From Bacteroidota bacterium (GTDB lineage: Bacteria > Bacteroidota > Bacteroidia > Cytophagales > Microscillaceae): 47,319 nt of DNA. Every line of letters begins with the position of its first letter. Within the stretch, counting starts at the first letter, position 1. The notes beneath the pieces are model-generated. The model did no database searches and was not told the origin of the DNA. It saw nothing but the letters and a program-made list of their open reading frames with translations. Below, piece by piece: positions 10,402 through 32,824 of the stretch. The translations under genes were made by a program, and so were the position numbers. The stretch lies in assembly GCA_004293265.1 (NCBI GenBank), contig RDXZ01000018.1, positions 1 to 47,319 on the forward strand. The letters are read 5' to 3'.

Positions 10402-11361
10402 TTAAATTACTTTTGAATAACGCAAAGTTTTAATGTATTTTTCCATAAAATCCCAATCAGGTGTGCCTTCGGGCGTTGCAGGTAGTTTTATTTTTTCATA
10501 AGGAAATCTTGAGAGGCGAAATTGTCGCCCATACGCATAACGATAATGTAATTTGCGTAAAATACCCACCAAAAACAATGATGTATATGTATTTAGATTT
10601 TCTTTGTATTCATTTTTGGGAATAAGTGTATGCACATTATCATCACTAAAATATCTATTTGGCTGATAAAATACATTAAAAAACATATCAATCGTAATTT
10701 TATTTTCAAACATTTTTTTATTTTCCTCAAATTCCTCCAAAGAAATATAATCCGCTACGCCATTATTTTCGGAAGATGCAGTGATAAGAGGTAAATTTTC
10801 ATCTCCTTGTATTCTGTCGGGCTGTGTAAGTCTTTCTCCTTTTTGGAGGGTAAAAAATTGGTCAAGAGAGAAAATACGCCAAGTATGTATTTCTAAGTTT
10901 ATTTCTTGTTCTTTCATATTTGCATCATAAAAAGGTGTTTTTATTTCTAAAAATGCTTTTGGAATTGCTGAAACATCAGGAATACCAATATTTTTAAGTG
11001 TTTTGTTTGCTTGTCTGCCATAATTATACCTATATTTATTTGCCTGCAAAATCATACAATAATATAACATTTGCATCACAGATAATTCAACTTTTGGCTT
11101 CAAATAATACAAATCTCGCCCACTATAATAAGGCTTTTCTTGGTAAAAAGACGACAAAACACTTCCACTTCCTGCCACTGAAATAGTATGAGCAGGATTA
11201 GGTATTAAGTCATAATCTTCTTCAATATACGCCACAACACCATTATTTTTTGAAGTACGAGAAACGAAAGGTATCCCGTTTTTTTTGTCTGTTTGGATAC
11301 AATGCACAAGTTCTAAATTGACACCATAAACTACCTCAAACAAATCTTTTACTTTTATCAT
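10402..11361 (-). CDS. DNA specificity subunit of RM system with two tandem target-recognition domains (BcgIB/HsdS-like)
   Basis: Two half-repeats, each with a GIPFVSRTSKNNGV / NLPLITASSENNGV strand and a YRYNYGRQ / YRYAYGRQ terminus; adjacent to fused methylase. Confidence 0.85.
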   Translation of the reverse strand: MIKVKDLFEVVYGVNLELVHCIQTDKKNGIPFVSRTSKNNGVVAYIEEDYDLIPNPAHTISVAGSGSVLSSFYQEKPYYSGRDLYYLKPKVELSVMQMLYYCMILQANKYRYNYGRQANKTLKNIGIPDVSAIPKAFLEIKTPFYDANMKEQEINLEIHTWRIFSLDQFFTLQKGERLTQPDRIQGDENLPLITASSENNGVADYISLEEFEENKKMFENKITIDMFFNVFYQPNRYFSDDNVHTLIPKNEYKENLNTYTSLFLVGILRKLHYRYAYGRQFRLSRFPYEKIKLPATPEGTPDWDFMEKYIKTLRYSKVI

Positions 11362-11373
11362 TTTGATGTATTT

Positions 11374-13212
11374 TTATTCGTTAATAATTTTAAAAGCATA
11401 GAGTGATTTTACTACTTTTTCAAAATCCTCTATGGTCAATGTACTGTAATCCGTTTCCATATATGCCTCTGCGCACCATTCATCGTTTGCATTCACAGAT
11501 TTTTTGACTGAAAGCCCTTCTATTTCTTTTGAATTTTTGTAGGCATTTACAAATTTTTCCCTGATACCTTCCCATTTTTCCTTCACATCTATTCTACCTT
11601 TGTGTTTGCGTTTTTCAAAACCATCATCTTTTAGGTAGCCAAACCACGTTTCCAAACCTTTATTTTGTTTATTTGCTTCCCACACCATCACACACGTAAC
11701 CACAGAGGCGGCAGGGCTAAAAATTTCATTGGGCATTGAAATTACTGCTTTCAGGTGGTGTTTTTCCAATAGTCTTTTTTTGATGGCGATTAGGTCTTTT
11801 TCGTTTTTGATAGCACAACTCATCTGCACAATTGCGACCACAATTCCGTTATTTTTGCCTATAACTTTCAAGCCATGCTCTATAAATTCCATTTGTCCCG
11901 CAGGACGCACATCATAAGGAGGATTGAGAAAGACGACATTTATATTGTGGTTTTGTACGATTTGTGTTTCTAAATTAAAACAATCTCCACAATAAATATT
12001 TGATTTGCCATCACCTCTAAAAAGCATATTCGAACACGCATACGTAAACATATCAGGTCTGCGTTCTACACCAACAAGTTGAGAGGATTTGATTTTATTT
12101 TTTTGTTCACTATCATTGCCCGCCAATGCAAGCATACGTTTCATTGCCGCAATCAAAAAACCACCTGAACCACAACAAGGGTCATAAACCACACTTTCGG
12201 TGGTAATATTTGCCAAATCACAAAATAAATCAGTAATATGAAAAGGCGTAAGCACCAAGCCTTGTGTTTTGGAACTGCCTGCATAACGTATAAATTCTGT
12301 ATAAAATTTACCCAAAATATCAATGCCTGCCTCGTCCATTTTGATGAGTGGAAAAATATTTTTGTGCAAATAATCTATAAAATTTTTGGCTATCTCAATG
12401 GTTAAAATTTCTTCTTTTTTGCGTTTGATTTTTGCTTGTTTAAAAATAGGTTCATTTGTTATTTTTTGAAATTCTCCCAACATTGAATCTTGGTTTCTTA
12501 CTGTATTTTTGTTCAAAACCCTTTTCAAAGCATCTAAAATTCCTTCTGCCAATTCGTGGCTCTGTTCATAAGTAGCATAACTTGTTTTGAAAGTATTATC
12601 CAACAAACTTAATAAAATAGCACTTACAATCGTACAGCGTGTGTTTTCGGTGATAGAATAACTTTGAAATTCGTCATTCAAAAAAACTGCTTTTTGGATA
12701 ATATCAATATTTTTGAGGTTTTCAGAAAAATTATCATTCTGAAATATTTTCAAATAATCATTGATTGAAATTAATTTATTGGTATTTTCGTTGCTAAAAC
12801 TTGGCTCGCCTTTTTTCCACCTAAAAGTAGAAACTTTGAGTTCTTGCTCATTTTCGCCACTCACACCTATTGCGACCACATCAAATTCTTGACTTAAAAA
12901 TTTGGCATAATGCAACACACCATCTACCGCATAATCTTTTGCTTTATCAAAATCTTGGCTTTCATGTTTGCTCACAGAGGCTTTACATTCCACCAAAATC
13001 AAAAAATCAGAATTTTGCACAGGAAAAGAGATAATAAATTCAGGTTTTCCAATGCCTTCGCCTGATTTAGAGGCGTTTTTTAGGCGTTCTTGGATTTTTT
13101 TATTACTTGATTTTTGTTCTTCTATTTTGATAACATTATGTAGTACATCATTTTTAAAATGATTTCTTACTATTTCTTCTGTAAGTCTTTCGTTTGCCAT
13201 TGTATTTTTCAA
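11374..13212 (-). CDS. Fused restriction nuclease / N6-adenine DNA methyltransferase (BcgIA-like)
   Basis: N-terminal PD-(D/E)xK-like PEFIISFPVQNSDFLILVECKA; methylase motif I VVYDPCCGSGGFL and motif IV VVFLNPPYD. Confidence 0.85.
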   Translation of the reverse strand: MKNTMANERLTEEIVRNHFKNDVLHNVIKIEEQKSSNKKIQERLKNASKSGEGIGKPEFIISFPVQNSDFLILVECKASVSKHESQDFDKAKDYAVDGVLHYAKFLSQEFDVVAIGVSGENEQELKVSTFRWKKGEPSFSNENTNKLISINDYLKIFQNDNFSENLKNIDIIQKAVFLNDEFQSYSITENTRCTIVSAILLSLLDNTFKTSYATYEQSHELAEGILDALKRVLNKNTVRNQDSMLGEFQKITNEPIFKQAKIKRKKEEILTIEIAKNFIDYLHKNIFPLIKMDEAGIDILGKFYTEFIRYAGSSKTQGLVLTPFHITDLFCDLANITTESVVYDPCCGSGGFLIAAMKRMLALAGNDSEQKNKIKSSQLVGVERRPDMFTYACSNMLFRGDGKSNIYCGDCFNLETQIVQNHNINVVFLNPPYDVRPAGQMEFIEHGLKVIGKNNGIVVAIVQMSCAIKNEKDLIAIKKRLLEKHHLKAVISMPNEIFSPAASVVTCVMVWEANKQNKGLETWFGYLKDDGFEKRKHKGRIDVKEKWEGIREKFVNAYKNSKEIEGLSVKKSVNANDEWCAEAYMETDYSTLTIEDFEKVVKSLYAFKIINE

Positions 13213-29578: not shown

Positions 29579-29616
29579 AAAATGATTTCTTAACATAAAA
29601 ATTAAGAAATCATTTT
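29579..29616. terminator. Hairpin terminator
   Basis: AAAATGATTTCTTAA / TTAAGAAATCATTTT perfect 15-bp stem. Confidence 0.65.
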
Positions 29617-29629
29617 GTTTGAATATATT

Positions 29630-30301
29630 TTATTTTTTACCAATAAAAATACGAACCCCAAAAGTTGGCAAAAATGAATTAACACCTAATTGAAAACCAG
29701 AAATATTGGTGGTATTAGTTGTATTATTAGTAGTATTAGTAAATTCAGAAGTAGCACTCGAATATCCTATCCCTGTAAAACCAATGTCAATACTCCAACT
29801 TCTTGTAGGAAAATATGAAAGATTAGGTGAAATAAACAAGCCATAACCGTTTGTTTTTCCATTTGAAGTAGAAGTAAATGTAGGACTTTTATTTTCGTTG
29901 GTTATTGTGCCAAAGTCAAGATTAGCGCGTGCTTGTATAAAAAACTTAAATGTTTCAGAGGAAGTTGGCATATAATAGCGGAAAGTAGGATTGATTGAAA
30001 AAGTACCCGTTGTTGTGGTATTTTCAGTACTTCCTGAGCTACTTTTTGAGTTTACTTTTTCGTTTGCATAACCAATGCCTAAACCAATTGCCATATTATC
30101 AGCAAAAAAATACCCTACATCAGGTATGACAAAAAATGAAGTTCTTTTTTCTTCGTTTGTAGTTACGCTTGATGATTTTGACGTTTGATTTCTTGAATTA
30201 ACCCCAAAAGTTCCTCCTACATAAATAGTTCCTTTTTCAGTTTGTGCGTTTAGGTTGGTAAATGTGAAGAAGGCAATCAAGCCAATAATTATTTTTTTCA
30301 T
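29630..30301 (-). CDS. Outer-membrane beta-barrel protein
   Basis: Signal peptide, GTIYVGGTFGVNSRNQ, barrel strands, C-terminal FGVRIFIGKK. Confidence 0.75.
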   Translation of the reverse strand: MKKIIIGLIAFFTFTNLNAQTEKGTIYVGGTFGVNSRNQTSKSSSVTTNEEKRTSFFVIPDVGYFFADNMAIGLGIGYANEKVNSKSSSGSTENTTTTGTFSINPTFRYYMPTSSETFKFFIQARANLDFGTITNENKSPTFTSTSNGKTNGYGLFISPNLSYFPTRSWSIDIGFTGIGYSSATSEFTNTTNNTTNTTNISGFQLGVNSFLPTFGVRIFIGKK

Positions 30302-30461
30302 ATTTTTAATAATTTTTTGAGTTTACTAATTTGTTTGGCAAATATCTATAAATATTAAGTAAAAACAAAAAAAAAGCATAAGTTTTTTTGAAAACTTTAA
30401 AAAAGTTTTTTTATTGTCAAATTTATTTTATAATTTTGTGGAGATTTAAACGCTATTCAAA

Positions 30462-30530
30462 ATGTCTATCACTCCACAATACAAAAACGCAAACAAAGAA
30501 ATATTCGCACCATTAAGGAACAGTAATTAA
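30462..30530 (+). CDS. Candidate 22-aa small ORF MSITPQYKNANKEIFAPLRNSN preceded by a TAATTTTG element (30431-30438)
   Basis: ATG..TAA read directly; -7-like element about 24 nt upstream; no clear -33 element. Confidence 0.2.
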   Translation: MSITPQYKNANKEIFAPLRNSN

Positions 30531-30620
30531 ATATAACTTATAACAATTTTATAATCATTACTATTTGATTATAAACCTGTTATAATCTTAAAATTTATAT
30601 GTTATTTGGTTTCTGTTCCT
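30516..30620. repeat. Nested inverted repeat upstream of the DUF488-fusion gene
   Basis: Outer AGGAACAG / CTGTTCCT; inner TTATAACAATTTTATAATC / GATTATAAACCTGTTATAA (17 of 19 paired). Confidence 0.7.
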
Positions 30621-30714
30621 AAAAGATAAATGACGGGTTTTGAGAAAAAAATTTTTAATTAAAAAATAACTAAAACAATGTTATTTTTTCTGAAAAACAT
30701 GTAATTTTGCACTT

Positions 30715-31605
30715 ATGATGTATTACCGCAGAAAAGTATTATTAGCATTATTAGAAACCTTTGGAGGAAGTTTGGGAAAAACAAGCCTCCAAAAGTTGTT
30801 GTTTCTTTTTTCTGAAAAATTAGAAAAGCCCATTTTTGATTTTGTGCCTTATCAGTATGGTTGTTATTCTTATCAATCTGTATGGGATTTGGGTGCATTG
30901 TCTTTAAAAAATTTTATTGAAGTAAAACGTACTTTTTGGCAGTTAAAAAATGTAAATGCAAATTATATTTCTTTGCTTAAAGAAAATGATCAGCAAAAAC
31001 TAACTGACTTGTTTCAAGATTTCAATAGTTTTTCCAGTCAAAAATTACTACACTTTACCTATTTAAAATATCCTTATTATGCTACAAAAAGTAAAATATT
31101 AAAAAAAGTATTGTCCACGCCTGAAATCACAATGATAAAAGAAAGCATTGAAAAAAGTAAAGATACTATTTTACATACCATTGGTTATGAAGGTATAAGT
31201 TTGGAAACGTATTTGAATAAATTAATCAAAGCAGATGTTAAGTTACTTTGTGATGTAAGAAAAAATCCGTTCAGTCAAAAATTTGGATTTTCAAAAGACA
31301 TGTTATCAAATACTTGCAAAGCAATGGGTATAAAATATTTGCATTTACCAGCATTAGGCATTCAAAGCGAAAAAAGACAAAACCTAAAAACGCAAACAGA
31401 TTATGACTTACTTTTCATGGAATATGCTACTGACACTTTGCCAGAAGCAGAAATATATATAAATGAAATACTTATACTATTAAAAAAATATAAAAGAATT
31501 GCCTTGACTTGTTTTGAGGCTCACCACTGCCAATGTCATAGAGGTATATTAGCAAAATATATTATTGAATTACCTGAATCTAACTTTGAATTAAAACACT
31601 TGTAA
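30715..31605 (+). CDS. DUF488-domain protein with an N-terminal SocA/Panacea-like extension
   Basis: C-terminal HTIGYEGISLETYLNKLI...LLCDVRKNPFSQKFGFSK...LTCFEAHHCQCHRGILAKYI (DUF488 hallmarks); N-terminal KTSLQKLLFLFSE...YGCYSYQ. Confidence 0.75.
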   Translation: MMYYRRKVLLALLETFGGSLGKTSLQKLLFLFSEKLEKPIFDFVPYQYGCYSYQSVWDLGALSLKNFIEVKRTFWQLKNVNANYISLLKENDQQKLTDLFQDFNSFSSQKLLHFTYLKYPYYATKSKILKKVLSTPEITMIKESIEKSKDTILHTIGYEGISLETYLNKLIKADVKLLCDVRKNPFSQKFGFSKDMLSNTCKAMGIKYLHLPALGIQSEKRQNLKTQTDYDLLFMEYATDTLPEAEIYINEILILLKKYKRIALTCFEAHHCQCHRGILAKYIIELPESNFELKHL

Positions 31606-31611
31606 AAATAT

Positions 31612-32421
31612 ATGGCACTTACAAAAGTACTTATTACCGTAAAAACATACCCTACTATCTCAACAAAATATGATGAATTGGTTTGTACTGCAGGTTTTCG
31701 AGAAGATGGTAGTTGGGTACGCATCTACCCCATACAATTTCGTCAATTGCAGTACAATGACCAATACAAAAAATATGAATGGATTGAGATTGATATAGAA
31801 AAAAATACATCTGATTTTCGTCCTGAAAGTTACAGACCACATAGTTTAGATACTGAACCTAATATCTTAGGAAAAATTGATACAAAGAATTTTTGGGCAG
31901 AACGTAAAAAAGTATGTCTAAATAAGATTTATACCAATCTTACCATACTTATTGCAGAAGCAAAAGATAACTGTACATCTTTGGCTACTTTCAAACCCAC
32001 AAAAATCATTGATTTTATATATGAGGAAGTAGAGAGGGAATGGGATGCTAAAAAAATAACTGCTATGAAGCAAACTAACCTTTTTCAATCAGTTGAAAAT
32101 GAAAACTTTGAAGTCGTCCAAAAACTACCTTTCAAATTTAGTTATATATTTGAAGATGATGAAGGTAAAAAAAGTACACTTATGATAGAAGATTGGGAAT
32201 TAGGAGCATTGTATTGGAATTGTTTAAAAGATGCTAAAGATGAAAAAGTTGCTTGTCAAAAAGTAAAAGAGAAATATTTTGATAACTTTACCATCAAAAA
32301 TGATTTATATTTTTTCTTAGGTACTACAAGAGAACATCATTTTGTAAGTAAAAATCCCTTTATTATTATAGGACTTTTTTACCCTTTAAAAGAAGACAAA
32401 ATACAAGGGAAACTATTTTGA
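31612..32421 (+). CDS. Conserved-looking protein of unknown function, co-transcribed with the DUF488 fusion
   Basis: 6-nt gap to upstream gene; ELVCTAGFREDGSWVRIYPIQFR, MIEDWELGALYWNCLKD, FFLGTTREHHFVSKNPFIIIGLFYP. Confidence 0.75.
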   Translation: MALTKVLITVKTYPTISTKYDELVCTAGFREDGSWVRIYPIQFRQLQYNDQYKKYEWIEIDIEKNTSDFRPESYRPHSLDTEPNILGKIDTKNFWAERKKVCLNKIYTNLTILIAEAKDNCTSLATFKPTKIIDFIYEEVEREWDAKKITAMKQTNLFQSVENENFEVVQKLPFKFSYIFEDDEGKKSTLMIEDWELGALYWNCLKDAKDEKVACQKVKEKYFDNFTIKNDLYFFLGTTREHHFVSKNPFIIIGLFYPLKEDKIQGKLF

Positions 32422-32455
32422 AAAAAATATTCGTATATAAATAACCAATAATGTT

Positions 32456-32601
32456 GTTAATGTAATGCTTTATCCTGCTGAACGAAGTGAAGCGACTGCT
32501 TGTTGAATAGCATTTGGTAAACGTAAATTCATATTTTTCGCTTCACTCAAAATCAGTTTGATTTTAAACCTCAAATCAGATAAAAACATTACATGTATAA
32601 C
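32456..32601. repeat. Imperfect inverted-repeat element, about 146 nt, possibly MITE-like
   Basis: Ends GTTAATGTAATGCTTTATC / GATAAAAACATTACATGTATAAC; inner AGTGAAGCG / CGCTTCACT; AAAATCA-gtt-TGATTTT. Confidence 0.55.
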
Positions 32602-32770
32602 ACTACCAAATAACCAAACCCAAATACTCAAAAAATAGCAAATTATCAAATTTCTTTATTTGCTCTTTATATCTAAAACAAGTTATTCTAAAAAAGACAA
32701 TATGTTTTTATATTTCATCAACGAACGATTAAAAAAACTTCTCGGTAATTACAAGTATGTTTCATATATT

Positions 32771-32806
32771 AAAAAAAAGAGGAACAAAAGTTCCCCTTTT
32801 TTATTT
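32771..32806 (-). terminator. Terminator of the glucan-utilisation locus
   Basis: AAAAAAAAGAGGAAC-aaaa-GTTCCCCTTTTTT hairpin with T tract on either strand. Confidence 0.7.
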
Positions 32807-32824
32807 TAGAAAAAATTTAGTAAT

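Follow-up and report, generated by a model that had tools for sequence, protein, structure and literature searches.

A SocA/Panacea-like DUF488 protein and its predicted dual OB-fold partner form a PDC-M19 phage-defence candidate in a Bacteroidota genome

The phage-defence candidate PDC-M19 is listed in PADLOC, where its entry carries no domain description; our literature search found no main text that names it, and no published mechanism or functional test of it. PDC-M45, also found in PADLOC, combines DUF488 genes with a gene of the Pfam family DuOB (PF22557). DUF488 belongs to the RapZ-C/DUF488/DUF4326 clade of the rhodanese-phosphatase superfamily, and Burroughs and co-authors, writing on this superfamily in NAR Genom Bioinform in 2023, reportedly predicted that DUF488 systems process DNA ends in virus-host conflicts. 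Phage-defence candidates of the PDC type derive from guilt-by-embedding, with experimental validation pending for most of them (PMC12988326). SocA/Panacea domains (PF13274, DUF4065; PanAT) are the antitoxin domains of two-gene loci in which the antitoxin usually comes first, and a GPV signature is critical for Panacea neutralisation (PMC8832971).

Here, we describe a gene pair, A and B, in a stretch of 47,319 nucleotides from a Bacteroidota bacterium (contig RDXZ01000018.1), which is called the window (Table 1). Judged by its sequence, the pair is a member of PDC-M19. Gene A matches the PADLOC model PDLC04505 (PDC-M19A) with E 6.7e-116, residues 2-296 aligning with positions 1-294 of 294, and gene B matches PDLC04508 (PDC-M19B) with E 1e-126, residues 1-263 aligning with positions 1-265 of 269. 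The full-length matches, the gene order and the adjacency are all alike, and no difference from PDC-M19 was found. Full-length matches were also obtained in PHROG (phrog_14939, 1.5e-67, for A; phrog_25907, 3e-72, for B), and an NCBIfam search of A and B gave no useful match. Since many homologues with conserved residues exist (29-51% identity for A and 35-65% for B; conservation was read from 38 aligned homologues of A and 32 of B), A and B are genes and not chance ORFs.

A preliminary description of this DNA had already listed the two ORFs, which are the longest of that region and lie on a common strand with 6 nt between them. The motifs that it quoted are all present, namely KTSLQKLLFLFSE...QYGCYSYQ and CFE...CHR in A, and CTAGFREDGSWVRIYPI, MIEDWELGALYW and FFLGTTREHHF...NPFIIIGLFYP in B. 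It had also held that B could not be assigned to a characterised family, which was wrong: the full-length PADLOC and PHROG matches rule out an unassignable partner. The SocA/Panacea and dual-OB assignments were made here, and it is this domain reading, together with the link to DuOB and PDC-M45, an empty site in a congener and a partial association with restriction systems, that constitutes the modest novelty of the present analysis.

Table 1. Positions of the gene pair, its domains and other features in the window
Feature	Coordinates	Strand	Remarks
Type IIG restriction system	10402-13212	-	About 17.5 kb from A-B; nearest restriction genes in the window
OMP gene	29630-30301		Part of the segment absent in the congener G396
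Hairpin upstream of A	30538-30585		20-nt arms, 90% complementary, z -5.2
Possible Bacteroidota -7 element TAATTTTG	30702-30709	+	5 nt before the ATG of A
Gene A	30715-31605	+	296 aa; PADLOC PDC-M19A; SocA/Panacea-like N-terminal domain fused to DUF488
SocA/Panacea-like domain of A	30715-31158	+	About residues 1-148; hhalign
DUF488 domain of A	31159-31605	+	About residues 150-296; Pfam PF04343
Gene B	31612-32421	+	269 aa; predicted dual OB-fold; PADLOC PDC-M19B
Imperfect palindromic element downstream of B	32449-32605 (about)		23-nt arms, 78%

The proposal that A joins a SocA/Panacea-like segment to DUF488 is supported for both parts. Against the SocA_Panacea alignment, the N-terminal part of A reached an hhalign probability of 96.6% (E 5.5e-10 over 139 columns), with unrelated control profiles at 6% at most, and on this profile evidence the domain is homologous to SocA_Panacea. 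The relationship lies below direct Pfam detection, as PF13274 gave no match in A up to E 1; a search of the window's own genome with PF13274 likewise gave no match. Based on the predicted structure of A (pLDDT 94), the best Foldseek match among solved structures is the DarT-binding half of DarG (PDB 7yk3; E 1.2e-3, probability 1.00), to which a sequence search of A also points weakly. The model thus suggests that the SocA/Panacea-like domain has the general fold of this half of DarG. Homology to DarG by sequence was considered and rejected, the profile similarity being marginal (5.6%) and SocA/Panacea being the clear sequence relative, and no match to DarT or to the macro domain of DarTG systems was found in either protein. 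Elsewhere in the same genome (L179, C53:6772-7398), a sequence like the second half of DarG was observed (E 1.5e-39); it has an internal TAG.

The C-terminal part of A matches DUF488 (PF04343), the sole Pfam family detected in this protein, with E 4e-24 and 85.9 bits, against a gathering score of 22.2. Its invariant residues are D180, R182 and, in the signature C-x-E...CHR, C266, E268 and C274-H275-R276. The signature is shared by 13 DUF488 domains whose contexts range over phages, archaea, cyanobacteria, proteobacteria and DuOB-linked loci, and the domain in A therefore appears to be catalytically intact. The DUF488 half of the model has weak solved-structure matches only, to phosphatases and tetrapyrrole methylases. 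A Gordonia phage protein, the 'immunity repressor' gp44, was also considered as a homologue of A and gave no match; the DUF488 gene of that phage is the convergent gp42.

For B, the Pfam search gave no match, DuOB included, and no solved-structure relatives were found by sequence. Its predicted structure (pLDDT 89) has its best Foldseek matches in RPA (6e-6), Teb1 (3e-4), CST, HIN domains and POT1, and the matched proteins are mostly ones that hold single-stranded DNA with at least two OB folds. B is therefore predicted from the model to be a dual OB-fold protein that is structurally closest to RPA, Teb1 and POT1, in line with the nucleic-acid theme that had been proposed for it. TM-scores to the OB proteins stay low, at 0.2-0.35, which means that B arranges its two OB folds differently from the matched proteins.

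In profile-profile comparison, B matched DuOB with probabilities of 72-78% (E 2e-5 to 4e-5), against 6% or less for the controls, and the match covers the N-terminal half with one alignment and the C-terminal half with the other. Relatives of B in Gordonia phages and on a Sulfolobus plasmid matched DuOB weakly, with an E of 0.002 that lies under the cut-off. B is probably a divergent relative of DuOB. In G396, a genome of the same genus, and elsewhere in the phylum, DuOB genes adjoin one or two DUF488 genes, and PADLOC assigns the DuOB protein of the G396 locus to PDC-M45A and its two DUF488 neighbours to PDC-M45B and PDC-M45C. We regard the designs of PDC-M19 and PDC-M45 as related, each combining a DUF488 enzyme with a dual-OB partner. 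PDC-M45 differs in that it comprises three genes, two of which encode stand-alone DUF488 proteins, and has no Panacea-like domain, and the OB proteins of the two systems are weakly similar by profile only. It was also observed that G396, which is without A-B, carries this PDC-M45 set of two DUF488 genes and DuOB at L074, positions 421-2136. Additionally, the second half of divergent homologues of B (L080, L081 and L045) contains the motif Cx4CxGH, a possible metal site, exemplified by CQEPACRGH, CPNINCNGH and CLDPDCRGH; the Bacteroidota copies are without this motif.

We infer that A-B is a horizontally moving two-gene defence module with an anti-phage effect, in which B binds DNA, the DUF488 domain acts and the Panacea-like domain regulates. 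This is the best explanation, and one to which we give guarded preference, at slightly better than even credence. B would grip the invader's nucleic acid with its two OB folds, the most likely form being single-stranded DNA or DNA ends. The DUF488 domain of A would be the catalytic part, modifying or processing the DNA presented by B, and the SocA/Panacea-like domain may couple A to B or hold the enzyme silent until infection. On this reading, A would exemplify a Panacea-like domain that acts in cis on an enzyme, and PDC-M19 becomes testable with respect to its residues, its substrate and its cooperation with restriction.

Genome neighbourhoods bear out the conserved pairing that had been suggested. 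A lies directly upstream of B nearly everywhere in the first 49 loci fetched. In a set of 75 loci with B, which includes same-order genomes and viral contigs as well as a few near-duplicates, 72 loci (four of them with an interrupted B) have a DUF488 gene immediately upstream on a common strand, and in 68 it is within 250 nt. The exceptions to the 250-nt rule are the four interrupted B genes directly downstream of A, a locus with a larger gap (L012), one in which a stand-alone DUF488 gene is convergent to B (L045) and one that is cut by the contig end (L214). The distance matrices of A and B are correlated with r 0.76, a value reached by 0 of 5000 permutations. The two genes are thus commonly and not rarely adjacent, and the partner is PDC-M19B and no member of a known housekeeping family.

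The composition of the DUF488 protein is more variable. Among the 74 loci with both genes, an N-terminal module beside DUF488 is present in 67 and absent in 7. B is accompanied by a stand-alone DUF488 protein on Rhizobium, Burkholderia and Calothrix plasmids and, near an integrase, in Gordonia temperate phages. On the Sulfolobus islandicus plasmid pSOG1 (L081, 2930-4858), a fusion of a ParB N-terminal/HTH part with DUF488 is followed by a B homologue, so that the control module is swapped. The third gene of the pSOG1 locus had been considered as the DUF488 gene and was ruled out, DUF488 being fused to the ParB protein upstream. An archaeal ParB-fold fusion to DUF488-HTH has been reported to bind CTP (PMC12704722). 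Relatives of A-B swap the Panacea-like module for a ParB N-terminal/HTH part, or do without.

Because B occurs with DUF488 proteins that have no Panacea-like part, whether stand-alone or fused to ParB, it is not dependent on that domain. This bears on the main rival to a defence module, namely a toxin-antitoxin system in which the toxin is either B or the DUF488 part of A, is neutralised by the Panacea-like domain and is freed on infection. The two-gene layout resembles that of antitoxin-first Panacea loci, with A in first place and B 6 nt behind it, and both the clear SocA_Panacea homology of the N-terminus and the structural resemblance to the half of DarG that binds DarT fit an antitoxin. 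However, the domain of A is fused to DUF488, its GPV position reads GC[YF]S throughout the A family (with G49 and S52 invariant), so that the signature is not kept, and the partner is an OB protein whose modelled fold is of a DNA-binding type and corresponds to no recognised toxin. We therefore regard a toxin-antitoxin system as unlikely.

The presence of A-B across the phylum is patchy. A was found in 24 and B in 22 genomes of a fixed sample of 396, mostly the same genomes, which amounts to about 5%. Among 57 relatives, with the window's own genome counted, seven have A-B, one of them as fragments only. B is broken by stops or fragments in G011, G016, G137, G162 and G393, and relatives of the pair also occur on plasmids, phages and viral contigs. 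In the congener G396, the neighbouring genes for a histidine kinase (79% identical) and an amylase-like protein (75%) are kept, whereas A, B and the OMP gene are absent, with about 130 bp unaligned between the kinase and amylase genes. The indel thus sets window positions 29602-32824, which hold the OMP gene and A-B, against about 130 bp of G396 (L141, 10635-10764), and either the window gained about 3.2 kb or G396 lost that segment. These results support the view of A-B as an accessory, mobile module.

They also weigh on the idea that A and B are a housekeeping pair for DNA or RNA repair or modification, outside any conflict. DUF488 proteins are widespread, ordinary genes immediately flank A-B in the window, and its defence role is inferred, all of which would suit such a pair. 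A function of this kind is, however, difficult to reconcile with occurrence in so few genomes, an empty syntenic site in a congener, carriage by phages, plasmids and viral contigs, and the broken copies of B, and we consider it very improbable.

The preliminary description had likewise spoken of a mobile cassette, on the ground that inverted repeats flank the pair. Mobility is upheld by the empty site in G396, but the repeats do not serve as its evidence: the left hairpin and the right element are unrelated and there are no matched terminal repeats. Bases 32449-32553 of the right element have about 40 copies in the genome at 72-88% identity. A cassette defined by these flanking repeats was rejected, since the two differ and the one on the right is a repeat dispersed through the whole genome; as a whole, the element at 32449-32605 resembles a miniature dispersed repeat.

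A defence-like setting, which had also been anticipated, is supported by restriction genes near the relatives of the pair. Of 20 A-B loci, 10 have a DNA methyltransferase motif at a distance of up to about 10 kb, compared with 0 of 13 control stretches (p 0.002); the motif covers amino-methyltransferases only. A later sample at the level of the order had it near 0 of 5 loci, which lowers the pooled association to 10 of 25 loci against 0 of 13 controls (p 0.007); the motif thus did not reproduce, among same-order relatives, the association with restriction. PADLOC shows a type II cytosine-type methyltransferase in the control stretches, and the true control rate must therefore be above zero. 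At a threshold of 1e-20, 129 neighbour genes from 17 loci match 159 PADLOC models, with type I restriction subunits and mads genes in the lead, compared with 59 models for 136 genes taken as controls from this set of genomes, where each listed model is matched by a single gene; both tallies count overlapping models and not genes.

At individual loci the contact is close. The order is hsdR-A-B-hsdS-hsdM in L093 (hsd names given by eye from sequence, with the PADLOC tally in support) and methyltransferase-A-B in L101 and L104, and a 1324-aa methyltransferase ends 9 bp upstream of A in L004. With L024, these loci place A-B inside or beside restriction-modification operons, and in three viral-contig loci (L210-L212) a methyltransferase of 264 aa, a stand-alone DUF488 gene and B are consecutive. 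Such arrangements, and an OB-type fold in B that would suit DNA ends, could also mean that A-B serves restriction-modification as an accessory, by modulating restriction or by repairing, protecting or recycling DNA ends, and is itself no immune effector. Yet the window copy, the five same-order loci and many others are, by the motif, without adjacent restriction-modification genes, and A-B therefore cannot depend on them; an accessory role seems to us distinctly unlikely. In the window, the neighbours of A-B are housekeeping genes, and the distant type IIG system listed in Table 1 comprises a restriction-methyltransferase of 612 aa (PDLC03608, 2e-109) and a type II specificity subunit of 319 aa (PDLC03594, 1e-30). 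As a defence module in its own right, A-B would often accompany restriction-modification systems and may have as its target the DNA ends that those systems make.

A broader and tentative proposal, which we hold to be doubtful, is that PDC-M19 and PDC-M45 are branches of a single immune family. Its dual-OB protein would hand single-stranded DNA or DNA ends, such as those produced by a co-encoded restriction enzyme, over to a DUF488 enzyme for chemical capping or alteration, and its control module would be swappable (Panacea-like, ParB or none). If this were true, the family would provide a DNA-end modifying second step after restriction.

Two minor observations concern the surroundings of the pair. 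The sequence TAATTTTG, earlier described as the pair's own -7-like element, is present, and its role as a promoter is weak: the motif TAnnTTTG is frequent (137 occurrences in the window versus 95 expected), and no TTG was seen at the -33 spacing from it. As a -7 element, it would make the mRNA of A nearly leaderless. Lastly, in L190 (2286-4191) and L095 (6697-8555), A-B lies near a likely PIN-type protein of about 500 aa that is followed by a small ASCH-like protein (identified by eye), and this PIN-type and ASCH-like pair is possibly a further recurrent neighbour of A-B.
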